Below are positions 1,035 through 64,000 of a stretch of DNA of 64,000 bases, in pieces. This DNA comes from Sclerodactyla briareus. Taxonomy: Eukaryota > Echinodermata > Holothuroidea > Dendrochirotida > Sclerodactylidae. Numbering within the stretch: the stretch's first letter is position 1; the number at the start of each line of letters is the position of its first letter. A model generated the notes under the pieces. It was given only the letters and a program-made list of their open reading frames with translations, was not told the origin of the DNA and did not search any database. The DNA lies in assembly GCA_026419785.1 (NCBI GenBank), contig JAODTK010005853.1, positions 72,001-136,000 on the forward strand, read 5' to 3'. A program made the translations under genes and the position numbers.

Positions 1035-1415
1035 TGTTTGTCTCGCCTGAACTTTGTTCAAGGAGAGACATAGTGATCACTTTGTTGTGTGTGTGGTCTG
1101 TCTCGTCCGTCCGTAGGTGCGTTCATTATCTCCCTGAACCGTGGAAGCCATCATGCTGAAACCTTTTCATGTACTGTGTGCGGTGAGAGTTGGCGATTAT
1201 CATGAACCTTTCATTCCAAAAGACCATACTAATTTGCATAAATTCGCACATTTAATGAAAATTGGCCCAAAAGCTTGTGTACAAGATATCTCTTGATCGC
1301 TAGATGCATTGGTGATGCAGTTCAGAGTATATAACAAATATGAAGATTACACCCCACTGATTATTCCATCATATTATATGCTAATTAGGTAGTCTAATTT
1401 GCATGAATTCTGATT
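1035..1415 (+). mobile_element. Family A 5' head and leader (HINE-like)
   Basis: TGTCTCGCCTGAAC starts at 1,039 and is followed within three bases by GTTCAAGGAGAGAC, giving a hairpin of about 31 nt. A TG-rich run and a CCGTCCGT block follow. Sequence up to about 1,415 then matches 51,786-52,230 phrase by phrase, including 'ctgaaacgtgg', 'aagcttgt..acaag' and 'tagtctaatttgcat'. The head begins in the T run of a family B phrase (GGAATTTTT), so it appears to have inserted into family B. No matching tail lies nearby, and the copy runs into family C. Confidence 0.65.
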
Positions 1416-2394
1416 CCGTGGGATGAGTCGCATCTATGCCGCCATGCCAGTGTGTCTGTGCGTTTTGCGGGTGGGTGCGCACCACCCAGCTCTGTAAAAC
1501 GATCACCACCCACCCTTGATAGCTGGGCTCATACTTGGAATGTGTGTTCCCCATGATGAGTAATATAAATCCTATTATTTTGGGTTCAGGTCGAGGTCCC
1601 ATATGTCAGTCTGAGAACCTTGTAAACACGATAAATCCAGAATGGGTGGTCTGATCGGGTTGAAGGTGTGTAGCTTTCTTATGAGGAGTACAGGAACCCT
1701 ATTGTTTCTGGTATAGGTCGGCGGTGAATTTTGGTCAAGATAGGACATTTGTGGAAAAGTCAATATTTAGCAATTTTGCCAGTAAACACAATAACTTGAC
1801 CCCACGGGGATAAAGCTGGATACTTGGTATGTGGGCTCGCCGTGATGGATTGCATGACCCCTTGTCTGGGGTCAGGTCAAAGGTTATCTGAGTTCAATAA
1901 TGTGCAAAGTCGGGAAATCTTGTTAAGAGGATAAGTCCAGAATGCTGGTCTAATCAAGGTGAATTTGGTGTGTAGCTTTATTATGTGGAGTGATAAGGGA
2001 ACCTATTGCCTTTTGTTGCAGACCAGGGGGTCAATTTTTGGGGTCCCGTCCTCCGGTACAGGACCATATTGTTTTTGGTCTAGGTCGGGGAATTTGGTCC
2101 AAAGTGAGAAATTTTATGAATAGGCGATATTCGCCAAATTTTGCTTGGCAAAAACCAAATAACTCGACCCCACCTGGATGATGAAGCTCATACTTAGTAT
2201 GTGGTCCCCATGAGGAGTACAGAACCCAATTGTTTGGGAATCAGGTCAGAGGTCACCAAGGTCAAAGTCTAAAACTTGTTAAACACGATAAGTCAGCATG
2301 GTTGGTCCGATCAAGTTGCATTTTGGTGTAATAGCTTTCTTATGGAAAGGAGATGGAAAATCCTGATAAATGTACCAACAGGGTTCAAGGTCAA
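1416..2394 (+). repeat. Family C monomer array
   Basis: Head-to-tail copies of the ~310-bp family C monomer: AACACGATAA..TCGACCCCACC, GAAGCTCATACTTGGTATGTG, CCCCATGATGAGTACATGA, GGTCAGGTCAGAGGTCA, AAGTCCAGAATG, GGTGTGTAGCTTTCTTATG. At least two monomers are visible, at about 1,490 and 1,785, with a further one near 2,130. The monomers differ mostly by small gaps. No coding capacity is shared between them. Confidence 0.7.
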
Positions 2395-2880
2395 TGAAGG
2401 TCATTTAATGTGAATAATTTGCAAAAATCATGTAATTTTCGAAGTTCTGTTAATATGCCAATAACAATCGAAATGAGGCAGTTAGGGTGCTTGTAGAGAT
2501 TTATCATGGAATTTTTGGGTTCAGTGGATCAACAACATCTAAAGAAGAGTCGAAAGGTAAGTTTAAGAGAGGCGTATAGGAGGAGTTACAGGGCAAAGAA
2601 ATAAGAAGAATAAGGAAGGGAACTAATTTTTGGATTATGTGATAGAGCTCTAGCGAGTACATGAAGAACAAACTCCCACTTCGATCTGACACCTGGTCTT
2701 CAAGTTACAAGGTCGATTTTGATACCGTTTGGGCAATAGCATAGGGCGAGTGTGTCTGATACATAAGGCTTTTGGGGCTTTAATGCATCACATCGAGGCA
2801 AGCATTTTTTATTTTTGACGAAGTCGGAGGAATCTATGCAGTCATAACAGTGGTATGTATGTGTGTGCATATGTAACGCC
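2395..2880 (+). repeat. Diverged copy of the 52.5-kb / 59.4-kb unit interior
   Basis: This matches 52,500-52,925 and 59,400-59,790 in order: TTCGAAGTT with a T run, 'caataacaat', 'gcagttagggtgct', 'agagatttgtcatgg', 'gagttacagggcaaagaa', 'cttcgatctgacacttgg', 'caccaagttacaaggc' and 'gaggcaagctttt'. The 6.9-kb unit duplicated at the right of the window therefore has an older relative at its left edge. Confidence 0.7.
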
Positions 2881-3511
2881 CAGCTTGTAAACACGATAAT
2901 TGACCCCACCTGGCTGGATGGAGCTCATACTTGGCATGTTGTTCCTCTGATGAGTACATGAACCCTATTGTTTTGGGGTCAGGTCAGAGGTCACCAGAGG
3001 TCAAAGTCTGAAAACCTTGTAGGCACGATAAGTCCAGCATGGTTGGTCCGATCAAGTTGAAATTTGGTGTATATAGCTTTCTTTGGGAGCACAGGAAACC
3101 CTATGTTTTTTGGGTCATGTCGGAAATTCCTAGGCCGTTAGCGCAATACCTCTTCAACGCTTTATCCGATTGATCTCAAACTTGGTACACATGTCCGCTC
3201 CAGTGGAATCTCGGATAAGTTCGAAAGTGGGGCATCACACTGCATGTCTGCTGGGGCCCTCTATTTTGCAGGTTTACATACAACAAAATTACTGAGTTTA
3301 TCTGATTTACACAAAATTTGGTGGTGGGGACAAAAGCTGGTCCCGAAAAACATGACAGTGATTTCAAGGTCTCCGGAGGTCAAATTTGTGTTTTTTGGCC
3401 GAAAATATAGAGTTAGTCGGGTTCACACGAAACTTGGTGGCTAGGGACAAAAGTTGGTCCCAAATAACATGACATGATTCTGAGGTCACCAGAGGTCAAA
3501 TTTCTGTCTTT
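2811..3511 (+). repeat. Degraded family C head with C and A-core fragments
   Basis: A worn family C head (TTTTTGACGAAGTCGGAGGAATC, written here only for orientation as TTTTTGACGAAG / GTCGGAGGAATC) sits at about 2,812-2,834. A TG-rich run and one family C monomer from 2,885 follow. From about 3,170 the sequence changes to 'aaacttggtgg' / 'ggggacaaaagttggtccc' phrases, which recur at 34,755-35,200. AGGTCA half-sites lie at 2,981, 2,988 and 2,998. Confidence 0.6.
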
Positions 3512-4345
3512 GATTCCTTGACTGAAGTCGGGGAATTTATGCCATCATCACTGTGTGTGTATGTATGTATGTGTGTGATGCCTGGCTTGTGAAGAGCATA
3601 ACTAGACCCCACCTGGATGATGAAGCTCATACTTAGTATGTGTGTTCCCCATGATGAGTACATGAACCCTTTTGTCTGGGGGTCAGGTTAAAGGTTATCT
3701 GAGGTCATTAGAGGTCAAAGTCTGAAAATCTCATGGAGAGGATGAGTCCAGAATGCTTGGTCTAATCAAGTTGAAATTTGGTGTGTAGCTTTCTTATGTG
3801 GAGTACAAGTACCCTATGGCTTTTGTTGCAGACCAGGGGTCATGTTTGGGGAGAAATGGTGAAAAATTGATATTTTGGGCAAATTCAGCTTGTGAAGAGC
3901 ATAACTAGACCCCACCTGGATGGATAAGCTGATATTTGGTATGTGGGCTCCCCGTAATGATTGCATGACCCCTTTTGTCTGGAGGTCAGGTCAAAGTTAT
4001 CTGAGGTCATTAGAGGTCAAAGTCTGAAAATCTCATGGAGAGGATGAGTCAAGAACGCTTGGTCCAATCAAGTCGAAATTGGTATGATAGCTTTCTCATG
4101 GGAGTATAACGGTTTTTGGTGCAGGCCAGGAGTCATTTCAAGGAGAAACTTGTAAAAAAATTGTATATAGGACATAGTGGCTGGAATGAAGCTCATACTG
4201 ACACTGCAGAGTGGATGTAGCTCATACTTGGTGTGTGTCCCCATAATGAGTACAGGGTCGATATTGCCTTGGGTAATCTGAGGTTACAAACCTCAAGTGA
4301 AAGGTCATGACAGTCAAGGAATCAGTAAGCCACTTGGCTTTCTGG
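3512..4345 (+). mobile_element. Family C element with head and tail (HINE-like)
   Basis: The head GATTCCTTGAC at 3,512 pairs with GTCGGGGAAT shortly after, and a TG-rich run follows. Two ~300-bp monomers start near 3,590 and 3,890 (both with 'gtgaagagcataactagaccccacctggat'-type openings). The tail GTCAAGGAATC at 4,313-4,323 is the inverted complement of the head. It is followed by a stem-loop, AAGCCACTTGGCTT, and TCTGG. The order head TIR, tandem core, inverted tail, terminal stem-loop matches the Helentron/HINE plan. No coding sequence is present. Confidence 0.6.
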
Positions 4346-14225: not shown

Positions 14226-15882
14226 TGTTCCTTGAAAAAGTCGGGGATCTATGTTAGTCATTCTCGTATGTGTCGTGTGTGTGGTGGTGTGTGTATGTGT
14301 GTGACGCTTGACTTGTAAAACACCCTAACTCGACTCCACCTGGATGGATTGAAGCTCATTACTTAGTATGTTGTGTTCCCCATGATGAGTACATGATCCC
14401 TATTGTTCGGGGTTCATGGTGTGAAAGTCATTGAGGGTCACCAGGGTCAAAGTGTCAACTAAAAGTGTGAAAGCCTCGTAAAAACGGAAAGTCCAGAACA
14501 GTTGGTCGATCAAGCTGAAATTGCGTGTTGAGCTTTTAATGGGGAGTACAAGACCCTATTGTTGGAGTGTTGATTGGGGTTCATTTTGTGAGAAATAAGG
14601 AAATTTCAAAAAGTGATATTTTGGTCAATGTTGGCGTGTAAACACGCTAACTCAACCTCACATGAAGGATGATGCCTCATACTTGGTATGTGTGTTCCCC
14701 ATGATGAGTACAGATCCTATTGTTTTGGGGGGTGAGGTTAAATGTCACGTGAGGTCACCAGGGCAAAGTGTGAATTTTGTTAAAGTTAGGTCCAGAAAGT
14801 CGGTCCAAGAAGGTGTAGTTTGGGTGTTAGCTTTATTAGAGGAGTACAAGAACCTATGTTTTTGGTCAGGTTGGGGGGGGGGAGGATTTGGTAGAAAAAT
14901 AGAAACCCCGACCCCACCTGGATGGAGAGCCTCCTGATTGGTATGTTGTGTTCACCATCATTAGGGAACATGACCCTACTGGTTTGGGGGTAAGGTCAAA
15001 TGTCATCTAATGTCACCAGAGGTCAACGTGTGAAACCTTGAAAACACGTAAGTCCAGAAACAGTGGTTCCGATCAAAGCTAGAGGGTGGTTTTGTGGGTT
15101 TATTATGGGGAGCACAAGAACCCTATTATTTGGGTCTTGGTTGGGGGACCTTTTTGGAGAAAACTAGGAATTGTCCAAAAAAATGATTATTTTGGTTTTT
15201 TTTTTGTCTTGTAAAACGGTAATCGACCCCACCGGATGGATGAAGCTCATACTTGGTTGTGGGTGTTCCTCATAATTAGGACATGATCCCTTAGTGTTTT
15301 GGCGTCAGGTGTGTAGTTTCTATGGGGATGTACAAGAGGAACCCTATTATTTGGGGTCTTGTTGGGGGACTTTTTGGAGAAATTAAGAAATTGTCAAAAA
15401 ATGATATTTTTTATTTTACGATTATAACACCGCTAACTCGACCCCACCTGATGGATGAAGCTATAAATGGGTGGTGTGTTTCCCCATATAGTTAACAGGA
15501 TAGCTATTGTTTTTGGCGGTCGGGCAAAGGTCATTGAGGTCACCAGAGGTCAAAGTGTCAAATCCTTGTAAACACGATAAGTCAGGAACGGTTGGTCTGG
15601 TCAAGCTGAAATTCGGTGTATGGCTTTCTCATGGGGAGTATAAAAGAACCCTATTGCTTTTGAGTCAGGTCTAGGTAAAACAGGATAAGTCCAGAATGCT
15701 TGATCTGATCAGTTGAAAATTTCCAGTGTGTAGTTTTCTCATCAAGAGTACAGGAACCCTAACCTGTTTTGTCGGAATGGTGTCAATTTCTGTGAAAAAT
15801 GGGAAATCTGTGAGAAATTTCATATCCTGCGTATAATGAAACTTGTACAATGTCCATTTATCCCATTGTCAAGGAACACATC
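14226..15882 (+). mobile_element. Family C element with about five monomers
   Basis: A worn head (GTTCCTTGAAAAAGTCGGGGATC region, 14,226-14,250) is followed by a GT-rich run. Monomer openings lie near 14,310, 14,635, 14,905, 15,215 and 15,425. GTCAAGGAAC at 15,869-15,878 may be a decayed tail. AGGTCA half-sites four bases apart occur at 15,537 and 15,547. This is the longest family C array in the window; monomer spacing varies from about 210 to 325 bases. Confidence 0.65.
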
Positions 15883-17956: not shown

Positions 17957-17995
17957 CCGCACAGAGTCAAAATCAATTCCTCTTTCACATCTTAG

Positions 17996-18760: not shown

Positions 18761-19189
18761 CCGCCCCCCCCCAATAAAAAAGATTTGGGAACCCCTCAGT
18801 CTCCTCCTATTTTTCATTCAGTGAGACAATTAGGCTACAATTGTCCATCCTGTATGATCCTATGTAACATGGAAATAATAATTTTGGTTTTTGGGGTTTT
18901 GATGTTTTGGTTGGTCTTTGCAAATTATGTGAGGGGGGAATTTTTCAGATACTCTTCTGGTAGAGTATTCTGGTAGAGTAGGCTATTCAGTCCGACAGTT
19001 TCGCATTATTACACATTAATTTACTGATGGTACCTTTTCCGACAAAATCTGGAATTTGCCAGCTAAAATCATCACCTAGTCTATGCTTACAAACCCTGGA
19101 ATATATGCATCGGGAATTGGTGGATTGCCTGCACATGAATTCATATTTCGTTGACTCCACATTCAATACAGGAAATGAACAATGGTGTA

Positions 19190-20287: not shown

Positions 20288-20588
20288 AAGTAGCACCCGA
20301 AATGAGTAGTTCGATCACTGGTGTGTGGCGGTGTGAAAAGAGGCCATTTGTGTGAATACACACGGCCACTATGGACACTCCTGGAAAAGAGGACCTCCTC
20401 GGAGGGGTGTGTTCGGTTTTGGGTACATGCACATGCTAACACTCTGCTCTTGGAGTTTAGTACAATCTGCAGTCAGTCTTTGGTGGGGTAGGGGTAGGTC
20501 TTCTATGTCTCGCCAGTTTGAAAGTATGCATGTGTGTCCCTTGGCCTCTGTTATCATTGACTCCAGTAGTGGGCAGTTTAACTTTTTT

Positions 20589-21605
20589 GTCTTGCCGAAC
20601 AAAGTTCAGAAAGCGACTTAGCAATCACTGTGGCATTTGTGTATGTCATTCATGGTTTGGTTGTCCCACTTTGTCGTTTAGCAGGATTTCTCCGAAATGG
20701 TCAGACCGATTTCGATGGAAATTTTGTTATGTATATGAGGTTGGGTGAACACAACGATTAACTCATTAGCAAGGTTCGGTCCCGAACCATAGGTCAATGG
20801 TGGTTTGGTTTTCACCTAGGTACAGGATATTAAGTAGATGAACTGATGAGACTCTCAGTGTAAAAGATTGCTAATCAAGTTGTCTAATTTCATAATTTCG
20901 TGCAATATACTTTTGTCAGGTTTTTTACGAAACTTGGTGAATGTGTCTGCCTTAGGTCCGAACTTTTTGACAAGATCCAGGGTCACTGGAGCCTCATTCA
21001 ATGTGTTCTACTTTGCATAGTTTTAGGGCAAAATCTCACAAAGCTTGTTGGATTTTCAATGGAACCCCGGTTTGGTATCTGGATCTGGTAGTCGGCCCAA
21101 CAATCACTGGATGCATGGTTTACCTTTAGTACCGAACATTTTTTCCTACCTTCACTCAGGTCCATGTCCATTTTAGAGGTATTTCAACGTGGACTAAGCT
21201 CATAAGTGTAGGCGTAATTTCATAAAGCTTTCCTGGATTTTCATGAAACTTGAAAAATTGGTGACGCAATGGACCATACAAGTTCAGGAATTTGAGTGTC
21301 AAAGGTCATCGGGGATCACTATTGACGAAGCTGTCATTTTTGGGGGTGAAACAACAAAGGCTTCTCCTCCTAGATTGAATTGGAATGATTAACGGTAGTT
21401 TGGGGTTTTCAATATATAATGACCTATGGTTCATAGGTTTGAACAGAAATTGTGGGTCAAAGGTCATCTGGGGTTTACTTTTAGGCCCTTTTATTTTCAA
21501 AGGCTTCCAACGCTCCTTCCAAAAGTTTCGATCAAGTTATCAACTTAGTCAGTATAGTGGTAACGCATGGTTCATATGGGGTTTCCATGAAATCCTATTT
21601 CACTA
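20589..21605 (+). mobile_element. Family A element, head plus core, no tail
   Basis: The head variant GTCTTGCCGAAC/AAAGTTCAGAAAGCGAC starts at 20,589 after a T run. A leader reading 'cgtttagcaggatttctccgaaatgg', 'ttttgttatgtatatgaggttgggtgaacac' follows. Core units with 'cgaaacttggtgaatgtgtctgcc' and 'ggtcactggagcctcattcaatgtg' then repeat about every 140-150 bases to 21,600. The element gives way to low-copy sequence before the next head at 21,841. Confidence 0.6.
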
Positions 21606-21840: not shown

Positions 21841-23242
21841 TGTCTCGCCTGACATGAAATTCCGGAAGAGAATAGTGGTCACTATGGGATGTGTGTGTGG
21901 TGTGGGTTGTTTGCGTGTGTATGTGTGCTGGTATGCTACAATTTCTGGTGAGGTTTTCTCACAAAACGTTGAGGCCTGTTACATGACGAAGTTTCGTGTG
22001 AGCCCAGGGGTTGGGTGACCCGATCCGATAGATTTTGGCAGCGAAGTCATCAATTGAAGTTGGTAAATTAGCTTATTTTAGGTCATTTAGTGTTGGAAGT
22101 CGTTGCAAAGATTACGCAGAACCGTAGGTGCTACGTGATGACACGTAGAGAACTGATATATTTTGCCTGCATATGCTTATTGAGTAGTCTCATTGGCTAA
22201 TTTATGCAAATTTTACCAATGTGTGGTCAGGTTTCACGAAAACTTGGTGGATGTGGTCACATGAGTTCCGGTCATGGAGGTCAATGTTTTGTGTCAATTT
22301 GCATTTTTTAGGCAATTTTTGAAGGTTGTTGATTCCACCAAACTTAGAGATATGACCACCTTGATCCAGATATTTGAAGGTACAGATGGGGTCAGTAGAG
22401 GTCATTGTATGTTGCCTCCTTTGCATAATATATTTAATTTCCAACTTGGTAAGAATTTCGCCAAAACTCAGTAGGGTTGGTCCGTTAACATTTTTCTGGA
22501 TCTGTTGTTTTCGATTTTCAGGAAGTTAAGTCATCATAATAGCTTCTGTTAGAATAAAGCACGGAGGAACAAGTAAACCGTTTAGCTCCTGTGACATTGT
22601 GCGTTATAAGCTGCTACAAGAAAACCCTCTTTTACACAACCAATTTGATTAGGTGATTAGACATCAAAAATTCTGTAACATTTTTCCCTCTCTCTTCTGG
22701 GGACTGGGGACAAAAGTGGAGGTTTCCCAAAGATATATTTTGAGACCTTGACTGCTGTGTGGGGATAGGTTGGGGTATGGGGGAAGGCGGGGGAGAGGTG
22801 TTGCTGCCTGGCAGGGGGGGGGGGGGATGGCATGTCCTGGCTGATTGAAAATAAAAGGCAATGAATAATCAAGGAAATTATTTTAAAGGGTAAAGAAGCC
22901 CGGGGGGGCGGATGCCTAAAGGGGATTTAGAACATTCAAGTTGGATTTTGGGTCGAAGAGGTGAGTTGACTGAGATAAAACTTTATTCAAATTTATGATG
23001 AAAGGAGTGGGGGGGGTGGGCATGAGGAAGAAAAAAGCAATTAAGGGACTTGTAATAAGAGTAAAACTTACTGGTCAGTTATTTAGGAAATTTTTTATTG
23101 TGTTTATAGGTGAAAATATGTGATGTGCGTTGACATGACCATGGTCTGCTTGAACTAGTTGGTTGTGTATAGTGTGTGTATAGTGTGAATACAGAACCAC
23201 GATTTCGCGCACAGGCGAGACACTTCTTGGCTATTGCCTTGT
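21841..23242 (+). mobile_element. Family A element, apparently full-length (HINE-like)
   Basis: The head TGTCTCGCCTG at 21,841 follows a T run. A TG-rich leader, three core units (22,200-22,460), 'gcacggaggaac' and 'aaccaatttgattaggt' phrases and a G-rich block at 22,758-22,830 follow. The inverted tail CAGGCGAGACA lies at 23,212-23,222, and CTATTGCCTTGT follows in place of the usual GCGATCGCCTTGT. Length is about 1.4 kb. The inverted repeat is at the very 5' end but about 20 bases inside the 3' end, as in Helentron-type elements. No open frame encodes a transposase or a Rep/helicase. Confidence 0.65.
22758..22830 (+). other. G-quadruplex-prone block of family A
   Basis: Several runs of four or more G lie within 75 bases and end in a run of about 13 G. 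The block recurs at the same place in copies at 31,270-31,320, 54,273-54,348 and 61,167-61,236, so it belongs to the element. Confidence 0.6.
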
Positions 23243-28274: not shown

Positions 28275-28319
28275 TGTCTCGCCTGAATGAAATCAAGAAG
28301 AGACTTAGTGGTCACTATG

Positions 28320-28354
<35 letters not shown>

Positions 28355-28480
28355 GTCACACTTTCTCGTCAAATTTTTCCATGGGCGCAAAGGCACCGAG
28401 ATATTTCTCTCACAATATGTATTTGGATAAGTTTGCCACTGAATATTACAGATATTACTTGATTATTTGAAGAGTTCAAC
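28275..28480 (+). mobile_element. Family A head, left part of an interrupted element
   Basis: TGTCTCGCCTGAA at 28,275 pairs with a nearby AAGAGAC; the sequence TTAGTGGTCACTATGG and a pure GT run follow. Internal family A sequence resumes near 30,452 (TTGGGCGCAAAGTCATTAAG), and a tail lies at 31,694-31,703. The head and tail may be one element of about 3.4 kb split by the insertion of family D (with its MITE) and family F. Confidence 0.55.
28322..28351 (+). repeat. (GT)15 microsatellite in family A leader
   Basis: A pure GT run at the place where other family A copies have an impure TG-rich leader. It is the longest such run in the window and is probably an expansion of that leader. Confidence 0.85.
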
Positions 28481-28619
28481 TCATCAACTTTACTTGTCGT
28501 GACGTAGGTCGACTGTTTCTGGCACCATATAATAACATGATAGCACAGAAGTATCCATGTGCATTATAATCAATGCGTATGCCATGCCAGACAAGCACAG
28601 CAACATAGCCACTAGCCAA

Positions 28620-29772
28620 ACATACACAGACCCAGTACTGTGATCCGGTAAAAGTTGTCTCAAAATGATCGCCATGCTTCAAAAGCGGTAAAGGGCGTTT
28701 CACACTTGTGCGATATGATACATACGATACGATAAATGATCGGATTAGGAGTGTTCAACTTGGCCGATAAAAATGTTGTACGTTAATTTTATCGAACGTC
28801 GCGGCGCCCTCAAATAACGGGAGAAAGTGGTGGGATTTTATTTGAGAAAAGCATAGGTTTACCCTTTTTGTCGCTTCAGGCATCCCCCCCCCCCTTTGAA
28901 AAGCATGGTAGGCAGAAACTTGTTTTACAATAAATTATAGTACGAAAAAGTTAATAATATTTTCAAACTGGACGTCCGAAATTAAATGTTATTGTATCGT
29001 ATCGTATTCGCACAGGTGTGAACACTCCTATTGAAAATATTACTTTTTAACTCGACGTCCGATAAACTTTATCGTCTCTTATCGTATGCAAGTGTGAACA
29101 TAAGCCCTTAAAGGAGGCGAAAAACTCGGTTATTGCAAGCAGACCAAAAAAAAAAAATAAGAGGGGCCGCCATCAGAGCGATTGGGGGCAATCTCTCTAC
29201 TGTTTTCACCCATTCGACACTTTTCATCCCCTCCGTGTGCGAAGTAAAAAAAAAGGGTCCATCTCGGCAAATGATTTTGCAAAAACAATCAAAATGGCCA
29301 CCAGTTGGGGTCCAATGGGGCAAATATGAAAGCTGGTCTCAAAATGATGCCCATGCGTCGAAACACACGCAAATAAGCTAAAAACTCATGTTTTCGAAAA
29401 AAAAATCCAAATGGCCTGAGTCAAGGTTGTCGGGCTATGCCCACTTTTTTTGGCCCCATTTCAAAATTTTTCATCAGACGATCTGTGTGCACGTTTTTCC
29501 AATATGGATCCGGCCAAGTCCTAGGAGTTATTGTCAGACACTATCAAATCATCAGTTGGTTGAAAATCCAAGATGGCGCCATCAGAGGTGGGTGCAGCGA
29601 TGCCCACATTCGAACTCATTCCGAGATTTCGTAAGGGCAGACATGGGTGCAAAGTTTCCATTTCAATCGGACATTGTGTTAGAGTTATTGCATTAACACA
29701 AAATCTCTGGGGTCGGCGCGGGCGGAGACGACGTGCCCAAAACCATAATATCCCCAACGTGGGGTTATAATG
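28620..29772 (+). mobile_element. Family D element, copy 1, carrying a MITE
   Basis: Core phrases 'gttgtctcaaaatgatcgccatgcttc', 'ggccgccatcagagcgat', 'tttcacccattcgacacttttcat' and 'aaaaactcatgttttcga' match the reverse complement of 32,735-33,860. The 3' end 'gacgacgtgcccaaaaccataatatcc' leads into a terminal stem-loop, ATAATATCCCC-AACGT-GGGGTTATAAT (29,745-29,771). That tail recurs in 39,590-39,940. The element is non-coding. Its left edge is uncertain. Confidence 0.6.
28692..29108 (+). mobile_element. PIF/Harbinger-like MITE, copy 1, TAA duplication
   Basis: The 417-bp element starts AGGGCGTTTCACACTTGTGC and ends with the near-inverse GCAAGTGTGAACATAAGCCCT. It is rich in CGATACGATA and TTATCG words and flanked by TAA at 28,689-28,691 and 29,109-29,111. 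The 3-bp TAA target duplication and the terminal repeats fit the PIF/Harbinger superfamily. No transposase is encoded. It interrupts family D. Confidence 0.75.
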
Positions 29773-30174
29773 AAATATAAGGTTTATTACTTGTGCGTCT
29801 ACTAAGTGATCATATGGAATTCCGGATGATGATTTTGATTGGTTTTGGCTTTTTTAGGTTGGGTTTTCCAAATTACATAATGATTTGTTTCAGATATCCC
29901 CTTGGTAAGTACTCTAATGATTTGACCGGATTCGCATTAGTCGTGGATTTAATTCATGATAAAACTTCCCCTAAAAATCTGGAAATTTCCACAGCTGAAA
30001 AGCGCACTCTAGCTATGTCTAGTTTATTGTCATGACTGCATGAATTACTAACTGATTCGTCTGCTACCACAACCGGTAGGCCTATACTCCATGTGTCGTG
30101 GGTCGCCATGCACAAAAATTCATTCCTTGGCTTACACAGTTTTGATACAGAGAAATGATCAATGTGATATTGAA

Positions 30175-30400
30175 CCATTTTTGAAAACACATGCAATGCA
30201 GTTTTTTGAGAGCGTAAGTTACACTACAAGAGTGCACGCAATGGAGATTAGCATATATGTGCCGACTGTCTGCTCAGTTGACTGACGTTCAGCCGAGAAG
30301 CTAGCTGTGCATGCCCATCTGCCGAACTCGGTGGCTTCAGTCTAGTGTACACCATTCAGATCGCGCTGGCAAATGAAAACCTTACAGAAGGAGTTAATAC
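30175..30400 (+). repeat. Family F dispersed repeat, copy 2
   Basis: Collinear with 19,190-19,430: 'acatgcaatgcagtttt', 'caagagtgcacgcaatggag', 'ctgctcagttgactgacgttcagcc' and 'gtgcatgcccatctgccgaa'. It lies inside the interrupted family A element. Confidence 0.55.
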
Positions 30401-30444
30401 ACGTGGCCCCACCACGCACTGCTGAGCTCTTTTGATGGTCCCCC

Positions 30445-31723
30445 TTTTTTTTTTACGTTGGGCGCAAAGTCATTAAGTAAGTTGGGTAATTAGCTATTTT
30501 AAATGTAATTTTTTTGTTTAAGGCTCGTTGGCAAGATTATGCAAGACCTGTATTGCTACAGTGATGTCGTTTGGCATGTAGGACCTGGATGACAGTAGAT
30601 AACTGATAGAATTTTCAAGCCTTAAATATCTAATTAGTGGTCCTAATTTGCAATAATTTATGCGAATTTTCCAAGTTGTCAGATTTTCCGAAACTTGGTG
30701 AAGTGGTCTACCATGTTCCCAAGTAATTTTAAAAGTGGAGTTGGGGTCACTGGGTCATTTGATGTGCCTAATTTGCATATGGATTGGATTTCCACAAAAC
30801 TTTGGTATATGTATCCACCTTGATCCAGATCATTTTTGAAGGTACAGCTGGGGTAGTAGAGGTCATTGTATGTGCCTAATTTGCATAATATATTCCCATT
30901 TCCAACGTGGTAAAATTTCGCCAAAACTCAGTAGGTATGGTCCGTTAACATTTTCTGAATCTGATGTGTTTGATGTTCATGAATTTGATTTAATCCCATC
31001 ATATAATAGCTTCTGTTAGAATAAGCACGGAGGAACGAGTACACTAGCTCCCTGTGACAATTGTGCTGTTTATAAGCTGTCCACAGGCAAACCCTCTCTT
31101 ACCCAACCAATTTAATTAGTTTGATCAGACATTCAAGAATACTGAAACATTTTTCTTGCCTCTCATATTACTGAGACGTGGGGACAACAATGGTTGGATG
31201 TTTCCTAAGATAATAGGTGTGGGAGACAATCCTTGACTTGATGCGTGGAGGATCGTTTGTTGTGTTGTGTGGGGGCGGCGGAGGGGCGGGTGTTTGCTGC
31301 AGGGCAGGGGGGGGGGGGTGGATGTCGGCATGTCTGGCTGACGTGGAAAAGGCAAGGCAGTGAAAAATGAAGGAGAATATTTTAAAAGGCAAAGAAGCCC
31401 GGGATGCTATGGGGATTTAGAACAGTTCAAGTTGAATTTTGGGTAAAAGAATTGGGTTGACTGAGCGATAAGACTTTCTACAAATTTGGGTGTTAATGGA
31501 GTCGAAGTAGTGGGGGGGGGGGGGGGGGCATGGAGAAAGCAAAACAGAGGGACTGTGTAATAAAGAGTCAAACTTTTTATGTGTTATATGTGGAAATATG
31601 TGATGTCAGTTTGACATGACGATGGTCTGCATGAACTAATGTTGTGTATAGTGTGTAGTTGGTGTGAATAATAGAAACCACCAATCGCGCCAACAGGCGA
31701 GACCGGTTTTGCGATCACCTTGT
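30445..31723 (+). mobile_element. Family A element, core, G block and tail
   Basis: Collinear with 22,030-23,242: 'aggctcgttggcaagattatgcaag', core units with 'cgaaacttggtgaagtggtctacc' and 'ggtcattgtatgtgcctaatttgcata', 'gcacggaggaacgag', a G-rich block at 31,270-31,320, a G run at 31,512-31,528 and the tail CAGGCGAGAC at 31,694-31,703. GCGATCACCTTGT closes the element. It is likely the right part of the element whose head is at 28,275. Confidence 0.65.
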
Positions 31724-42800: not shown

Positions 42801-43690
42801 ATGTTAGTCTTGGTTACGATGATACTTGATTTCACGAGTTACCTGTGTTTACATAACACCAGGTTGGCGTAGGGGGAGGGAAAGAATGAGGTTCTCCTGC
42901 TAAGTGCTGTGAAATCCCTCGCAAAAAAAAATGTCAGTAGGGACATTCCCTCCCAAATTTTTTAATTCCGGGTTGCGGGTTGTCGTGTTAGTGCATATGA
43001 GAGTCCCTCTTCTCACTTAAATTCCTCTTAAAATAAATCTGAGGAGGGAATTCCCCCTAGGATGAGAAGCTTAGTGCCGAACACTGCACCACTCGCAGAA
43101 TTTATGCAGTGCGCCATCACTCGTACTCGGGTGGTGTTTGGATCTGTCTTGTCAAATGTTTAACCTGCTTCCAACTTATAGATAAAGCCAATAACAACAA
43201 TGATAGGGAACACGGCCCCCCGCTTCGAGTTTCAAATATGTCTGTGGAGTTTGCCTTGTCAATATTAATGACCAATTTCGTAGCTATTCACGCGGATTCA
43301 TGCAGGGGTTGCTACAGCTTATATCATTGCCGTGAGGACACAATGTAGAAATGTTTATTTTAATGGGCGTAGCTCGTTCACCAAATGTGGCTCTAACTTC
43401 TCACACGGACCACTCCAACATTGGTTATTTGGACCAAGCGATATCTCAGTCAGCGGCGGCAGGAATTTTTTTGTATATTGACGGATTGGACAATCCAGTT
43501 CAAGAAGGGCTACACAATAATCAGCTCAAGGCAAGAATGACCAGGAGTCAGTTTGGCTAACTTTAGCTTGTTTCCTCCAAGACCTCACCTGCATGATGTA
43601 GTTTCACACTTGTATGTATATCCCTATTTTGATAGCTACAATATTTCCTATTTATCTGTTAATGCTTTAGCTTGGATCAAGTCAGGATAT
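42801..43690. other. Unassigned insert within family C
   Basis: Sequence from 42,830 to 43,560 does not belong to A-D. Two open stretches on + (43,109-43,348 and 43,351-43,560, the second beginning MGVARSPNVALTSHTDHSNI at its first ATG) look more protein-like than their surroundings, but I do not recognise a family and see no clean splice sites. Confidence 0.3.
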
Positions 43691-43693
43691 GAA

Positions 43694-43728
43694 AGTCGAA
43701 GGAATCACTAAGCCTTTTGGCTTTCTGG
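43694..43728 (+). mobile_element. Family C tail
   Basis: GTCGAAGGAATC is the inverted complement of the family C head with one extra base. It is followed by the stem-loop AAGCCTTTTGGCTT and TCTGG, as at 4,313, 56,559 and 63,347. Confidence 0.7.
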
Positions 43729-51785: not shown

Positions 51786-54195
51786 TGTCTCGCCTGAACT
51801 TTTTAAAGGAGAGAAATAGTGGTCACTGTGTGTTGTGTGTCCGCGTCTGTCTTGTTTGCTGGCTGTCCGTCCATCCGTCGTCCGTCCGTCCGTCCGTCCG
51901 TTCCGTCCGTTCTGTCTGTCCGGTATGTGGCGGTTCGATATCTCCTGAAACGTGGAACCAGCATCATGCTTGCGGACCTTTTTGTGGCGGTGCCACGGTG
52001 TGAAGAAGTTGCCGATGTGCATCCACTTTTCGTCCCGAAGACCATCTCATTTGCATATCAAAATTGCATATTAATGAAAAATTGGCAGGAAGCTTGTCTA
52101 CAAGAATCTCTTGCATCGGGATTGCATTGGGGTGATGCCGTTCGGAGTATATACAACTATGAAGAGTACACAAACTGATTAGATTCCTGCCATGATATCT
52201 GCTAATTAAGTAGTCTAATTTGCATAATTTCTGCGATATTTTTGAAGTTTGTTGGATTTTGACGAAACTCGGTTGTGGAGGGGTGGAGACGGTCTTATCT
52301 ATAGTCCCACTAAAATTTTACAGTAGAGAGGTCACCAAAGTTCATTTCATGTTACTAATTCGCATTTACCTAGTCTAATTTGTCATAATTTATGCAGATT
52401 TTAAGTTGGTTGAATCCTCATGAAACTTGGTGGAGATGGTTACACCTTTGATCCGGATGAATTTAACAACAGTGCAAACGTCACTTAAGGTCATTTAAGT
52501 GAATAATTTGCCATAGATTATGCAACAATTTTTCGAAGCAGAGTTTAGTTTTTTTTTTTAAATGGCCAGTAACAATTGGAAGGAGTGCAGTTAGTGTGCT
52601 CTTAGAGATTTGTCCTGGTTAATTTTTGGGTTCAGTTATCAAACAAATCTAAAGACATGGTTGAAAGGTCAAAGGTCAAGTCGTAAGGAATGTGCTTATT
52701 TAGGAGTTACAGGGCAAAGAATAAAAAACATGTCACTTTTTGGACGATATGTGATAATCGGGCTGCTACTAGACGAAAACCCAACTCTTGCTCGATTGAC
52801 ACTTGGTCACCAAGTTACAAGGCCAAAGGTTGATTTTAATCCTTTGGGAGATAGCATAGGAGTGTTTGTACCTGATTACTAAGCTTTTGGGGCACTGAGA
52901 TCACATGGAGGCAAGCTTTTTATAAACAACCGTCATGTCATCAACGGTCAGTGCGAGGGTCAAGGAAACTGCAAATAAAACATTGTTCTGCCGATAACTT
53001 ATAAGTGACTGTGCGAAATGGCTGAAATTTTAGGACATGATGCATATTATCGAAGGTAACATTTTTAATAAAACCGTTATGTTCATCAAAGGCATTCAGG
53101 TCACTAAGACCAAAACTGTCAAAATAATAACACTGTCCTGCAACAAACTCTAGAGACTGTATGCTCCCCATTTAAGAATGGTAGTTGGGGCACCCTAGAT
53201 GACCAGCATGATGCTGACCTCACTATTATTATAGCATGCATCAATGTTGCTCATTTCAACCCTCAGGTATGGATTTCCATTCATCTAACTAGTATTCATA
53301 TCTGTAAAAAGACTGAGATTTCATCGATTGTCAAACCTGCCTTTTTACCTTGAGTTCCACTTCTGGCCTGTCATCACCTTTCGGGCCCCTACACTGACCA
53401 TAAAGTGTAAAACCATGCAGGGAAAACTGTGGAAATTTACTTATCTGGAGCCTCTCTTGAAGCAAGTGTTATAGGATTCCCCTACATATTGTTAATATTT
53501 TGCAGTCATTGTGTACTTATACCCAGCACCTATTCAAGGAATGCAGGGGGTTGCCAGCGTACACCTGCGTAGAGGAGCTTATGGTAGTGTGTGAGACGCT
53601 GCGAAGTGAGTAGGAGTAACTCCCTCGGGAGGGCTGGTATTGGGGTGGTTATGGAAGTAATAGAGTAGGAAATGAATTCTTATGGGTGACATGAGGATAT
53701 ACAAAACTTCATTAGATTGAGCGACCAGGATCCCACTATGAGCTATGGTAACCTTTAGCCTTGCCAAAATGTGAAACATTGACTCGGGTCACTAGGGGTT
53801 ATGCTGTGGGTATGATGCGCGATTCATGCAAATGTTTCAAGTTTGTTGAATTTCGATGAAATGTATTAAGTGTTCACAATTGGTCCTGAGATAAATGATA
53901 GTGAGGAAAATGGGGTCAACAGGAAAGGTGAAGATCATGTATTAATTTGATAATTAGGCAATTCTTATACACATTCCCTTGACATACAAACTATTCCTGT
54001 TTGGTAGACATTGTCAAAATCAGTTCCTTACGGTTGAACTTGGTCATGATAGTAGGGTTGTTTTGTTAAAATGCTAATACCAGAATCTTTAAACGAAACT
54101 CAGTAAATGCCTTGTAATTGTTCGATGGCATGGTGGACTATAAATGGAGAACATGATAGCGTAAAGGCGAGACAACTGGGGGCGATCGCATGTTC
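51786..54195 (+). mobile_element. Family A-type element nested in family A
   Basis: The head TGTCTCGCCTGAAC starts at 51,786 in the T run of the host copy. A leader with a GTCC-type run (51,865-51,925) and the unique interior at 52,500-53,700 follow. The tail AGGCGAGACA lies at 54,165-54,174, and GGGGGCGATCGC at 54,179-54,189. The host copy resumes within a few bases. No coding sequence is found in the 2.4 kb. The duplicated copy shows the same right junction at 61,050-61,095. Confidence 0.65.
51862..51930 (+). repeat. GTCC tetranucleotide run
   Basis: An impure (CCGT)n run in the leader of the nested element. The copy at 1,102-1,118 has a shorter CCGTCCGT at the same place. Confidence 0.75.
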
Positions 54196-54770
54196 TTCCT
54201 ATCCTTTCTGGACTGGGGGTCAAAAGTGGAGGTTTCCTAAAGATTATTTTGGGGCATCCTTGACAGGCTGCATGGGGATAGTTGTTGGTGTGTGGGGGAT
54301 GGCGGGGGAGGGTGGGGAGGGGGTTTTCTGCTGGCAGGGGGGGGGATGGCATGTCTGGCTGCTTGGACATGAAAAGGCAATGAATAACGAGGGAAATGAT
54401 CTTAAAAGGCAAAGAACAGGGGGGGGCCCCGGTGCCTTAAGGGATTAGACATTTCAAGGTGGATTTCGGGTCAAAGAAGGGAGATGAATGGCGTTGAAAC
54501 TTTAATCAAATTGGGTATTTATGGGAGCGAAGAGAGTGGGGGGGGGCATGAAGAAGGAAAAAAACATTAAGGGGCTTTTGTAATAAGAGTTCCACTTATT
54601 GGTCAGTTTATTTTAGGAATATTAGTGTTATATGTGAAAAAAATGTGATCTTCGTTTGACATGACGATGGTCTGCATGAACTAGTGGTGGTATAGTTGTG
54701 TAGGGTAGTGAATAATGAAAGCCACCGATCGTCGCAACCCAGGCGAGACACTTTTTGCCAATCGCATCGT
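54196..54770 (+). mobile_element. Family A 3' half with G block and tail
   Basis: 'tggaggtttcctaaagat', the G-rich block at 54,273-54,348 with a G run before ATGGCATGTCTGGCTG, 'gacatgacgatggtctgcatgaactag', then the tail CAGGCGAGACA at 54,740-54,750 and GCCAATCGCATCGTT. It is the right part of the host copy begun at 51,420. Confidence 0.7.
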
Positions 54771-54839: not shown

Positions 54840-55325
54840 TTTTCATGAAGCTTGATGGGTATGGTCTACCTTATAGTCCCCAAAAATGTTAACAGGGACT
54901 TGAGTCACTGGGGGTTATGCAGGTGTATAGATTGTTTCATTCATGCAAAGTTTGTTGAGGTGGTGGAGTCCCATGAACTGTAGTAAGGGTGGTCCACCAT
55001 TGGTCCGGAATTTGAATTGAGGGGGAAAAATGGGTCAAAAGTGAATATTGTGTCTAATTTGCATGATCAGGCAGTTTTGTTTTTTTTTAGTCACATTTCC
55101 ACAAAACTCCCTCCTTTAGTAGACATTGTCAATAATCAGTCCTTACAAATTGAAATGGGGTACAGATCTAGGCTTTGTTTCTGTTAAATGGCCCTTACCG
55201 AAATTTTGAAGCAAAACATGCATGCCGCCTCTGATTGTTCACATGGTGACTAATAGAAGAAAAAACTGATCGCGCCAAGGGCAAACCGGAGAGCACTGGG
55301 GAGGGCGATCGCCTTGTTTTATGAG
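54840..55325 (+). repeat. Family A core with degraded tail
   Basis: 'catgaagcttgatgggtatggtctacc', 'gagtcactgggggttatgcag' and 'tctaatttgcatgatcaggcagtt' units lead to a worn tail, 'aaactgatcgcgcc..gcaaaccggagagcactgggga', and an intact GGGCGATCGCCTTGTTTT ending near 55,320. The partner in the second copy is 61,690-62,182. Confidence 0.6.
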
Positions 55326-55610: not shown

Positions 55611-56592
55611 GATTCCTTGACAAAGTTCCCAGTCAGAGGAATATATTGCCAGTCATTACAGTGTGTGTGTGTGTAAGTATGTGTGTGTGTATTGTATAAC
55701 GCGGATTTGGACACGATATACTCGACCCCAACGGTAGGATTGAAGCTCATACGTGTTATGCGTGTTCCCCATGATGAGAACATTAAACCTATTGTTTGGA
55801 GCAGATCGGAGGTCATATGAGGTCACAGAGGTCAAAGTCTGAAAAACCTTGCGAACACGATGAGTCCAGAATGGTGTGTGATCGGGTTCAAATTTGGTGT
55901 GTAGCTTTCTTATGGGGGAGTGCAGGAACCTATTGTTTCGGGTATAGGTAAGGTGTGAATTTTGGTCACACAAAAAGAAACTTTATGAAAAGTCAATAAT
56001 TTGCCCCAAATTTGGGCTGCTGAAACACGATACTCAACCCCACCGGGGTGGGTGGAGCTGAAGCTAATTCCTTGGTATATGTGTTCTGCATGATGAGTAC
56101 ATGGAACCCTGTTGTTTTAGGGTAAGGTCAGGAGGTCATCTGAGGTTACCAGAGTTCAAGTCTGAAAACCTTTGAACACAATAAGGCCAGAATGTGGTCT
56201 GATCGGAGTTCAAATTTGGTGGTTTTAGTTCCTTTGTGGAGAGTACAGGAAACCCCATTGTTTGGGTATATTTTTTTTGTTTTTTTTTGGTCTGGGGTGA
56301 ATTTGGTCAAAAATAAATTTATAGCATGGTAGGTGTGTCCCGATAATGATTCAGGAAACCTTTTCGTTTTGAGGTTCACCAGAGGTCCAAAGTCTGAAAT
56401 CCTTGAAATTAGTGTATAGCTATCTAATATCAAGAGTATAGGGGGAACACTTTTGGACTCGTTGGAACAAAGGGGAAATTTTGTCAGACGTTATGTTTTC
56501 CAATGAGCGTGGTACAATTCCCATTTGGCCTGAGTCTGGCTATAGGTTGTTAGAAAGAGATCAAAGAATCACTAAGCCTTTGGCTTTCTGGT
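55611..56592 (+). mobile_element. Family C element with head and tail
   Basis: The head GATTCCTTGAC (55,611-55,621) pairs with GTCAGAGGAAT (55,632-55,642). A GT-rich run, two monomers opening near 55,700 and 56,020 and the tail GATCAAAGAATC (56,559-56,570) follow. The stem-loop AAGCCTTTGGCTT and TCTGG close it. Three AGGTCA half-sites lie at 55,810, 55,820 and 55,829. It sits inside an older family C monomer (55,330-55,610). Confidence 0.65.
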
Positions 56593-59137: not shown

Positions 59138-62100
59138 CATATTTTTTGAAGTTTTGTTGGATTTTGACGAAACTCGGTGGAGACGGTTTATCTATATTCC
59201 CAATAATTTTACAGTAGAAGGTCACCAAAGTTCATTTACTGTTACTAATTCGCATTTACCTAGGTTACATTTGCTAATAATTTATGCAGATTTAAAGTTG
59301 GTTGAATCCACTTGAAACTTGGTGGTGGAGATGGACAATAACCTCTTGATCCTGATAATTAACACCATGCAAAGGGTCACTTAAGGTCAATTTAATGTTA
59401 ATATGTTGATAGATTATGCAATTTTTCGAAGTTTTTTTGTTAAATGGCCAGTAACAATTGAATGAGTGCAGTTAGGGTGCTCGTAGAGATTTGTCATGGT
59501 ATTTTTGGTCAGCTGATCAAACAACATATAAAGACAGGTTAAAGGTCAAAGTCAGTCTTAGGAATGTCTTATTTTTTTTAGGAGTACAGGGCAAAGAAAT
59601 AAAAACGTCAATTTTGATATGTGATAGATCTCTGTCTGCTTCATAGATGAACCAACTCTTGCTTCGATCTGACACTTGGTCACCAGTTACAAGAGGCCAG
59701 GTTGCTTTTAATACCTTTTTTGGCGATAGTCAAGGGCCGTGGACCTGATTACATATGCTTTTTGGGGGCATGAGCAGCACATTGAAGCCAAGCTTTTCAT
59801 AAAAACCGTCATTGTCATCAAAGTCATTCTAAGGTCAAGAACTACTTCCAAATCATAACTTTCTGCCATAACTTCTAGTGATTGTGCGAAATGGCTGAAA
59901 TTTTAGGACATTCTGCTATTATCAAGGGTAACATTTTTCAATAAAAAAACGTTATTTCATCAAAGGTCTTCAATGGTCACTTCAGACAAAACTGTCAAAT
60001 AATAAACATTTCCTTCCGGCAACAAACCTCTAGAGACTGTAATGCTACCCATTTAAAATGGTATAGTTCTTGGGGCACCCGAGAGACCAGCTGATGCTGA
60101 CAGCACTTTATTAATACATGCCATCACTAACAAAAGGTTGCTCATCATTTCAACCCCTCCGGTATGGTATTTCCATTCATCTTAACTATATTCCTATCCG
60201 GTAACAGACAGAGATTTCATCGATTTCCAAAACCTGCCTTTTTATTACCTTGAGTTCCACTTCTCCTGTCCTCCTCGTCTGGGCCCCCTACACTGAACCA
60301 TAAGTGTAAACATGCAGGAAAACTGTGCCTGAATTTATATTAAACTGGAGCCTCTCTTGAAGCGTGGTTAAGATTACCCTACATTATTGACTATTTTCGT
60401 CATTTGTTTACTTACTACCAACTCTACCCGGCACCTATTCAAGATCAGGGTGCCAGGTTACCCTGCAGTAGAGGAGCTTATGTATTGGGTGAGACAGCTG
60501 CGAGTAACTCCCTCGGGAAGGCTTGTATTGGGGGTGGTTTCCTGGAAGTACTCGATAGAAATGAATCTTATGGGTGCACTTATGATTACAAACTTCTTAG
60601 ATTTAGGACCAGTACCACTTGACTATGGTCCAACCTTAGCCTTCCAAAATGTTAACATTGAATCGGGTCACTAGGGTTATGCTGTTTTTATGAATTGCGC
60701 GATTCATGCCATGGTTCACGTTTGGTTGAATTCGATGAATGTAAATTAAGTGGTGGGTTCACATGGGTCCTGAATAAGTGAATGAAGAAATGGGTCCACA
60801 AAAGTTGAATACATTGTCCTATTTGCAATAATTTATGCAATCTTATATAATACACTTCCTTTAACACTACACCCTTATTCCTGTTTGGGTAGACATTGTC
60901 ACTACTCCAAGTCGTTACGGATTTGAAATTGGTCCCTGATTAATAGGATGGTGTGTTCTTTTCTGTTAAATCTAATAACCAAAGAATCTTAAGAACTCTT
61001 AATGCCTTGTAATTGGTTCGCATGGGTTACTAATAATTGAAAACCACTGATCGCGTAACCAGCGATACACTGGGGGCGATCAGCCTTGTTTTTTCCTCTC
61101 TCTGCTGGCTGGGGTAAATGTGGAGGTTTCCTAAGATATATTTTGGGACAATCCTTGACATCTCATGGGGATAGTTTGGGTTGGTGTGTGGGGAGGGGCG
61201 GGGGAGGGTGTTTGCTTGCTGGCATGGGGGGGGATGGCATGTCTGGCTGCTTGGAAAAAATAAAAAATGCAATGCATAATAGAAGGAAATGATCTTTAAA
61301 AGGCACATAAAGCCCCGGCGCTAAGGGGATTTATTAAATTTCAAGTTGATTTCGGGTCAAAGAAGTGAGGGCGTGACTGAGCGATGAAACTTTAATCACT
61401 TGGGTATTTATTGAGAGAAGATTGGGTGGGGGGGCATGAAGAAAAAAAACAATTAAGGACTTTTGTAATAAGAGCAAACTTATTTGTCATTTATTTTAGG
61501 ATTTTATTGTTATCGTGAAAAATTGATCTTCGTTTGACATGACGATGGTCTGCATGAACTAGTTGGGTTTTTATATGTGTATGGGATGTCGTGATAATTA
61601 ACCACCGATCGCGCAACAGGCGAGACACTTTTTGGCATCGCCTGCGTTACATAGCGGGAGGACACTGAGGGGCCATTCTGTTTTGCATGGTTTATTCCAA
61701 ATTTAATAGTTTATTTTGATTTCATGAAAGCTTGATGGGTATGGTCTCCTTATAGTGCCCCCCCAAAAATGTTAACCATTGACCTGAGTCACTGGGGGTT
61801 ATATGCAGTGTGTAGAATTGGTTTCATCATGCACCTGTTTTTTGAGTTTGTTGTATTCATGAAATTTATTAAGTTTGGTCCACCATTGGTCCGGATGTAT
61901 TTGGATTTAGAGAATGGTCAACAGTTTGAATATTGTTGTCTAATTGCTGATTTCTGCAGTTTTAGTCCCATTTCCACAAAACTCCCACTCCTTAGTAGAC
62001 ATTGTCAATAATCCTTCCTTACAAATTTGAAATTGTTCACAGATCAGTAGGCTGTTTCCGTCATGCCTATACCGAAATTCTGAAGCACACTTGAATGCGC

Positions 62101-62459
62101 CTCGTGATTGTTCACATGGTGACTAAGAGAAGAAAACCTGATGATCGCGCAAACCGTCGAGGCCGGGGCGATCGCCTTGTTTTATAGTTAGGTCAAAACT
62201 CATCTGAGGTCCAAGAAAGTCACGTCTGAAAACTTGTTAACCATGAGAAATCAAGAATATTGGTCCAATCCAATGAAGTGGGTCAGCAGCTTTCTATTGT
62301 TTTTAGTGCAGACCGGGGTCAATATTTTTGTTGAAAATAGGAGATTGTGACGTTTATTTTTTATCTCCACATGACTCAACCACCTGCGATGGAAATTGGT
62401 GTGTAGCTCTCTTCTCATACACGGGACCCTTATTGTTTCATCAGGACTGAGTCATAGCT

Positions 62460-63378
62460 GATTCCTTGACAGTCAGATGAATTGATGCATCATTACAGTG
62501 TGTTGTGTGTATGTATGTGGTTTGATGTAGACGCTGGCTTGTTGACACGATCTCGACCCCACCCGGTATGGAGGAAGCTCATACTTGTTATGGCTTGTTC
62601 CCCATTGATGAAACATGACCTCTATGGTTTTGGAGTCAGGTCAGAGGTCATCTGAAGTCACCAGAGTCAAGTCTGAAAACCTGTTGACACGATAATTCCA
62701 TAATGTTTGGTGTGATCGGTTCAAACTTTGTGTGTAGCTTTCCTTATGGGGAGTGCAGGAACCCTATTGTTTTTGTAATAGGTCGAAGGTGAATTTTGGG
62801 TCACAAAAAGAAAATTTATTAAATAAGCATAATTTGCCGCAAATTTTGGGCTTGTGAACACGATAAACTCAACCCCACATGGGTGGATGAAGCGATACTT
62901 GGTATATGTGTCTGCAGAGATAACAATAACCCTGTTGTTTTGGGTCGGTCAAGGTCTCTGAGGTTACCAGAGCTCAAGTCTGAAAACCTTGGTACACAAT
63001 AATCCAGATGGTTGGTCTTATCGGTTTCAAATTTGTGTGTAGCTAGCTTATGAGGAGTACAAGAACCCTAGTGTTTTGGTATAGGTCTGGGTGATTTGGT
63101 AAAAAATAAATTTATATATGGGATTGGTGTTCCCGAAATGAGTTCATGAAACCTTTCGTTTTGAGGTCCCAGAGGTCAAAGATCTGGAAATGCCTGAAAT
63201 AGTGATATCTATCTACGTACAAGAGTCTAGGACACCCTTTTTGGCTCATTGGAAAAAAGGGAAATGTGGCAGACGTTATGTTTTCCACAATGAGCTGGTA
63301 CATCTCCCATTTGTCCTTGAGTCTGGCTTTAGGTTTGTTAAAGAAAGTCAAGGAATTCCGAAGCCTTTTGGCTTTCTG
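62460..63378 (+). mobile_element. Family C element in second tandem copy
   Basis: Head GATTCCTTGAC at 62,460-62,470, GT-rich run, monomers opening near 62,540 and 62,850, tail GTCAAGGAATTC at 63,347-63,358, then AAGCCTTTTGGCTTTCTG. The family B head hairpin (GCTCAAACC / GGTTGAGC) starts at 63,381, so B begins where C ends. Confidence 0.65.
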
Positions 63379-63380
63379 TT

Positions 63381-64000
63381 TAGCTCAAACCACTATACCT
63401 GGTTGAGCTATTGATCTGCATTCCCTCTATCTACTATCTATCCATCCAGCCATCCATCCATCCATCTATCTATCAATCGCATCCATCAGTCTGTCAACAA
63501 TTGCTTTTTTGCCTCCCAAACAGTCATTCTTTGAACGGATGTGCACCAACTTGGACACCCTTTCATTGACCCATGCAACATGTTTGACCTTTTAAGGTCA
63601 AGGTCAAAGGTTATTAAAGGGGCAATATGCCATTATGTTGTAGAATTTTAGAATGTTTTCTTCTCCTACAATTTCGGTGGCACATTGCTGATGTTCATCA
63701 TAATATGGTCTTCAGCCGTAACCTTCGAGTGTTCAGGAATTTTTGGTCACGTTTCCACTAGGGCCCTCAGGCCCATTTCATGAAAGTTCACACAATGGTC
63801 AATCTCCATCCCACAAGCTTCAATAATTTTCGTCAAAGTTTAATGCAATGTTTCTTGGGTAAAGGTCCATTAGGGGTGTTCGGGAAATTTTTGGCCCAGG
63901 GATTTTGGGGTCATAGGGCCCATTAATGTGGATACACACAAAATCTTGTATTCACAATCTTAGTTGCAACAGTGGCCTGATGTCAGTCATAATGATGGTC
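63381..64000 (+). mobile_element. Family B element head and monomers
   Basis: The hairpin head at 63,381-63,411 (TAGCTCAAACCACTATACC, then GGTTGAGCTATT) is the best preserved in the window. An ATCC-type run at 63,428-63,480 and monomers with GATGGTC phrases near 63,692 and 63,983 follow. It continues past the window. Confidence 0.65.

Follow-up and report, generated by a model that had tools for sequence, protein, structure and literature searches.

Two dispersed non-coding element families with Helentron-like ends in Sclerodactyla briareus, and the tendency of their neighbouring copies to share a strand

Introduction

Helitron-like elements presumably transpose in single-stranded form. Canonical Helitrons begin with TC at the 5' end and finish with CTRR at the 3' end. 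Canonical insertion is described as taking place between A and T (available passages of PMC5876387). Among the non-coding relatives known as HINEs, HINE-Mo of a mite and DINE-1 of Drosophila have subterminal inverted repeats (subTIRs), a 3' palindrome, T-rich insertion sites documented by empty sites, microsatellites or tandem repeats in some copies, and a habit of occurring in clusters (available passages of PMC4067079). The best-matching system is Cg_HINE of the Pacific oyster, in which, according to the passages available of PMC7492417, an 11-12 bp 5' subTIR, near which a complementary repeat lies, is followed by a microsatellite leader (GTCY, GTCC), a satellite-DNA-like tandem core in one orientation, a 3' subTIR and then a palindrome, the target being T-rich and not duplicated. 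Here, we describe two families, A and C, that share these features in a 64,000-nucleotide stretch (hereafter the window) of the holothuroid Sclerodactyla briareus (GenBank assembly GCA_026419785.1, contig JAODTK010005853.1, positions 72,001 to 136,000 of the forward strand; G000:C3096:72001-136000 in our numbering). The families, with the end words TGTCTCGCCTG and GATTCCTTGAC, carry their parts in the same order as Cg_HINE but differ from it in sequence and in unit length (about 580 and 300 bp). We consider A and C to be two HINE families, non-coding and moved in trans by a Rep/helicase of Helentron type (or Helitron2 type), with a probability of roughly 0.88. As families they would do no more than lengthen the known HINE list, and the part worth following is the tendency of neighbouring copies to lie on the same strand.

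Results

A and C are real families, dispersed through the 319-Mb genome. All genome-wide counts come from this single assembly (319.5 Mb, 3171 contigs), and the control for each word was the same word reversed. The exact A word TGTCTCGCCTG occurs at 2949 places against 136 for its control, i.e. about 20 times more often, and the A head TTTTGTCTCGCCTGAA, the A tail, and the C head occur 934, 365, and 496 times, each against 0; the C tail is present 857 times exactly (0 reversed) and 2163 times with one mismatch (2 reversed). Within the window, TGTCTCGCCTG stands exactly at seven places (1039, 21841, 28275, and 51786 on the plus strand; 23212, 54740, and 61617 on the minus strand), and with up to two mismatches A words number 24 and C words 33, compared with shuffle means of 10.7 and 21.0; 0 of 100 shuffles attain either number. 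Profiles trained on 95 ends of other loci, with the window left out, find all four kinds of end (A and C heads and tails) in the window at E <= 0.05 and give 0 matches in the reversed window. By profile consensus, the A heads form two subtypes, TGTCTCGCCTGAACTTTGTTCAGGGAGAGACATAGTGGTCAC and TGTCTCGCCTGAATGAAATTCAGGAGGAGACTTAGTGGTCAC, the A tail end is CAGGCGAGACACTGGGGGCGATCGCCTTG, the C head is GATTCCTTGACGAAGTCAGAGGAATCTATGCAGTCA, and the C tail end is GTCAAGGAATCACTAAGCCTTTTGGCTTTCTGG; the heads start with TGTC or GATT, and elements end with CTTG (A) or CTGG (C). Distances below 5 kb from a head to the next tail range from 0.6 to 3.4 kb. The window holds 16 stop-to-stop frames of at least 150 amino acids, none of which overlaps the six A or C copies that have both head and tail, and ARAGORN reported no transfer RNA in it. 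An earlier note on this DNA had treated 1035-64000 as a set of element families; A and C are indeed present there, but the span itself is a mosaic because copies are nested or lack one end. In the set of sequences fetched, to which the window belongs, 46% of the non-redundant letters are related to others of the set. Searched for as bare strings in open papers, the A and C words gave no match concerning repeats among the matches listed.

Both families follow the common plan that had been proposed for them: T residues precede a head hairpin, a TG/GTCC leader leads into a core, and the head recurs in inverted form ahead of a 3' palindrome. The 5' subTIR is terminal or nearly so and pairs with a complementary repeat into a hairpin, and individual head hairpins fold well. 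Leader and core are frequent, although not required, in HINEs; here, GT and GTCC arrays are found at 28322 and 51865, and 13 of the 14 C copies have a tandem core, with a lag of 282-336 and units of about 300 bp. The degenerate tandem core claimed for both families is clear in just 2 of 19 A rows, with units of about 580 bp. Near the 3' end, both families carry the inverted subTIR copy followed by the palindrome. In A, the palindrome GGCGATCGCC is self-complementary with a possible stem of only 3 bp, and consensus folding returned 3 pairs from 24 A tails and none from 37 C tails; the terminal stem-loop of the earlier note is therefore a palindrome by sequence to which covariation lends no structure. 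As separate observations, a C tail and a C head adjoin, separated by two bases, on the minus strand of locus L063 (around 482-484), and two C tails on one strand were noted at loci of this group (L063, L055, and L047). Tandem arrays in other Helitrons have been attributed to a bypassed end signal (available passages of PMC4067079).

Filled and empty sites, the comparison that the earlier note had asked for, revealed insertion into T runs with target duplication absent for two insertions and three related empty sites. The A copy at 51786 interrupts an older A-type element, and the same stretch is whole in two other A copies (22597-22795 and 31061-31285); the joined flanks align to both counterparts through the T run with 0 loss and 0 duplication, one T being assignable to either side. 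For the C copy at 3512, the uninterrupted relative again has a T run at the site. In general, T precedes every one of the 27 exact A heads and 18 of the 19 C heads, so that these are not the A/T sites of canonical Helitrons, and T follows the tail in 21 of 24 A and 27 of 37 C cases. Neither family shows the target-site duplication and exactly terminal inverted repeats of elements with a DDE transposase.

The search for an autonomous partner returned degraded Rep and helicase relics. Profile searches of the genome gave three matches to PF14214 (Helitron_like_N) at two places, in two pieces on contig C2413 and on C2926, and one to PF05970 (PIF1) on C3088. The Rep frame on C2413, which matched only itself when the genome was searched with it, reads IEFQQRGSPHAH and contains an RGSPH motif; because this motif and its serine are described as Helentron-type in the available passages of PMC4067079, the frame was counted in favour of that class. 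Downstream of the Rep frames on C2413, a C copy begins after about 1.1 kb, and locus L035 contains a C-tail-like string with 4 errors. We infer a Rep/helicase partner for A and C. Near the C2926 Helitron_like_N match (L034:3932-4591), we also observed a frame resembling parvovirus NS1 (Pfam Parvo_NS1, E 2.4e-14).

All profile-matched A and C ends of the window lie on the plus strand, bar one weak match at 18827 (E 0.018), and a repeat finder returned 50 direct families against 2 inverted pairs of at least 40 nt. Given this bias, the strands of neighbouring copies were compared genome-wide. Each genome list behind the strand counts consisted of the first 100 places by contig order, which is not a random sample; 3 of the 100 C tail rows were dropped (heads read backwards, or a tandem junction), 29 of the 100 one-mismatch C tail rows were typed, the rest being assumed to be already in the exact list, and ends of a family that lay on the same strand and no more than 5 kb apart were counted once. 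The 498 typed A and C places thereby became 459 insertions, 229 of them on the plus strand. Neighbours 10-100 kb apart share a strand in 90 of 134 pairs, a value reached by 1 of 5000 shuffles, and agreement is found in CC pairs (27/33; 0 of 5000 shuffles), in AC pairs (40/60; 40 of 5000), and when heads alone are considered (44/62; 2 of 5000). Beyond 100 kb, 21 of 49 pairs agree (4377 of 5000 shuffles). It should be stated that the tail lists raised the idea of coherence and that the head lists came later, but the heads-alone count was taken after merging with tails; the idea hence grew out of part of the data later used to test it. A first count by eye on one list (C pairs 22/24; A tails 11/19) gave C a higher agreement than did the full data, which replaced it.

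A third dispersed repeat, W3, runs in one direction throughout the window (634-679, 949-994, 4786-4831, 5224-5269, 56873-56918, 58202-58247, and 63658-63703), and its word TTTTGGTGCACAGTGCTGA occurs at 267 genome places against 0 for the control. W3 is possibly family B of the earlier note or another HINE core, and for this reason does not serve as an unrelated control. In the 79 of 100 W3 rows used (those as far as C1968, the last contig reached by the A and C lists), W3 shares the strand of the nearest A or C in 27 of 35 cases within 100 kb (5 of 5000 shuffles) and in 12 of 30 beyond. For A, C, and W3 together, 115 of 167 neighbours at 10-100 kb agree (0 of 3000 shuffles), with 41/60 at 10-30 kb and 47/61 at 30-60 kb, as against 25/56 beyond 100 kb; at 10-100 kb, both different-family pairs (66/93; 0 of 5000 shuffles) and same-family pairs (49/74; 10 of 5000) contribute. 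Without the five contigs richest in pairs the count is 82/124, and bootstrapping over contigs gives 0.62 to 0.75. The counts for A and C neighbours without W3 fit a local sign that about 9 in 10 C copies and about 7 in 10 A copies follow.

Discussion

The assignment of A and C to HINEs, already made in the earlier note, is in agreement with their end anatomy, T-run insertion without duplication, dispersal, lack of any frame of at least 150 amino acids, nesting, and the head-to-tail pair. By analogy with known Helitrons, Rep would nick one strand at the 5' end, the helicase would strip that strand away during copying of the donor, with the 3' subterminal repeat and palindrome marking where the element ends, and the freed strand would be joined into a T-rich target. 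Several results weigh against this assignment. The terminal stem lacks covariation support in the tails aligned; about 20 bp separate the 3' repeat from the end of the element, as compared with 38-60 bp in HINE-Mo and DINE-1, which moreover have autonomous partners with shared ends (available passages of PMC4067079); the C empty site is only 72% identical, with T runs of unequal length; and the C end CTGG also fits CTRR, whereas the A end CTTG does not. In addition, the Rep/helicase gene flanked by A or C ends that the earlier note had suggested looking for did not emerge, as none of the relics on C2413, C2926, and C3088 is enclosed by such ends in the 16-20 kb read around each. The 11-base inverted words do resemble terminal repeats, as would be expected of cut-and-paste inverted-repeat elements (MITEs), yet the 3' repeat stops short of the terminus and has a conserved palindrome after it, and the empty sites show no duplication, making such an origin very improbable. 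Membership of Helitron2, with a Rep/helicase devoid of endonuclease, is harder to dismiss but still rather doubtful: asymmetric inverted repeats and palindromes at both ends define that group too (available passages of PMC4067079), and the frames beyond the helicase in the C3088 relic, itself not tied to A or C, are endonuclease-like by eye only (Pfam E 0.18, under the cut-off). On the other hand, the C2413 Rep relic, likewise not tied to A or C, has the Helentron-type serine, and the oyster elements are called Helentron derivatives in the passages available of PMC7492417.

With regard to the strand coherence, replication was the first guess because Helitron-like elements presumably move single-stranded and because the orientation of IS200/IS605 elements mirrors replication. 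In these bacterial elements (e.g. IS608), a single strand is inserted and orientation tracks the local direction of the host chromosome (available passages of PMC5371812), a likeness in how they work and not in membership. By extension, the incoming strand would favour target DNA that is single-stranded on one strand of a replication fork as it passes, and neighbouring copies would point the same way. Replication-coupled insertion is our leading guess, albeit unproven, and we put forward only tentatively that copies of unrelated Helentron-type families, inserted into one strand of moving forks, form a fossil map of fork direction over domains of tens of kb to about 100 kb, as a eukaryotic counterpart of IS200/IS605. 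Against a strong reading stand the AA pairs at 10-100 kb (23/41, not significant; 1334 of 5000 shuffles), the counts for tails alone (23/34; 179 of 5000) and for A, C, and W3 at 60-100 kb (27/46; 464 of 3000), and the lack, at 55 element-oriented loci, of a base skew such as is frequently linked to replication (T-A skew 0.004, 95% -0.013 to 0.023, in unrepeated letters, i.e. those without a relative among the fetched letters). The lack of skew and the low AA agreement in particular make the replication reading less credible in its strong form.

Transcription is also directional, and insertion into strands that it opens, or selection on orientation in transcription units or PIWI-interacting RNA clusters, is a somewhat unlikely source of the coherence. 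Typical genes in a genome of such size are shorter than 30-60 kb, a span over which coherence is still high, and reverse-transcriptase matches, expected to be oriented by intron selection as well, match their nearest A, C, or W3 copy in strand in no more than 11 of 20 cases within 100 kb (5/10 beyond) and agree among themselves in 3 of 7, a small sample that could hide a moderate effect (38 of 150 rows used, contigs up to C1968, plus 7 pairs chosen by eye from the full set of rows). An origin in target supply, nesting, or segmental duplication has in its favour that nesting is common and that two C copies of the window (at 55611 and 62460) share flanks; however, runs of at least four T or A are balanced (T:A 650:697 at the 55 loci in unrepeated letters, 215:217 in the window), which makes target supply unlikely, and nesting or duplication would not readily tie together members of different families separated by tens of kb, pairs of which agree as often as reported above, so that we regard this group of causes as improbable. 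What remains is a local direction, of replication or of transcription. Literature on Helitron orientation, strand, or replication yielded no report of such coherence, most subscription papers being outside the coverage; Cg_HINE is described in both orientations with no chromosomal preference, and the passages available of PMC7492417 do not mention coherence at the scale of domains. From a broader point of view, how Helitron-like elements find their targets in eukaryotes is an open question that a HINE-rich genome with measured fork direction could settle, and replication-coupled insertion would imply that the coherence may record how the host copies its DNA.

Copies and fragments in the window

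The A and C copies and fragments are listed in Table 1.

Table 1. A and C copies, single ends, and one related empty site in the window
Feature	Position	Strand	Evidence
A head, subtype 1; no own tail identified	1039..1096	+	profile E 1.1e-18
C head without first bases	2815..2866	+	profile E 1.6e-11
C copy, head and tail; related empty site 34932-35092	3512..4345	+	profiles
Degenerate C head	14228..14282	+	profile E 4.2e-5
Degenerate A head	20588..20646	+	profile E 9e-4
A copy, head (subtype 2) and tail; contains 22597-22795, uninterrupted counterpart of the site filled at 51786	21841..23241	+	profiles
A copy, head (subtype 2) and tail; contains second uninterrupted counterpart, 31061-31285	28275..31722	+	profiles
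Relative of the flanks of C copy 3512-4345, no insertion, 72% identity	34932..35092	+	sequence comparison
C tail, no head identified	43647..43728	+	profile E 2.7e-9
A copy, head (subtype 1; GTCC leader 51865-51922) and tail, inside older A-type element	51786..54192	+	profiles
A tail	54693..54765	+	profile E 3.9e-7
A tail	55200..55316	+	profile E 5.4e-13
C copy, head and tail	55611..56591	+	profiles
A tail	60986..61088	+	profile E 1.4e-15
A tail	61576..61643	+	profile E 3.7e-10
A tail	62075..62179	+	profile E 1.9e-11
C copy, head and tail; both flanks like those of the copy at 55611	62460..63379	+	profiles

An imperfect palindrome (AGCTCAAACC ... GGTTGAGCT) directly follows two C copies (56592-56700 and 63380-63490) and one A copy (locus L019, near the A tail); it is possibly a shared target or the 3' end of another element, perhaps family D of the earlier note. 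Two GC-rich stretches (7807-8304 and 47291-51053) consist of short degenerate tandem units, and their long frames resemble low-complexity sequence.

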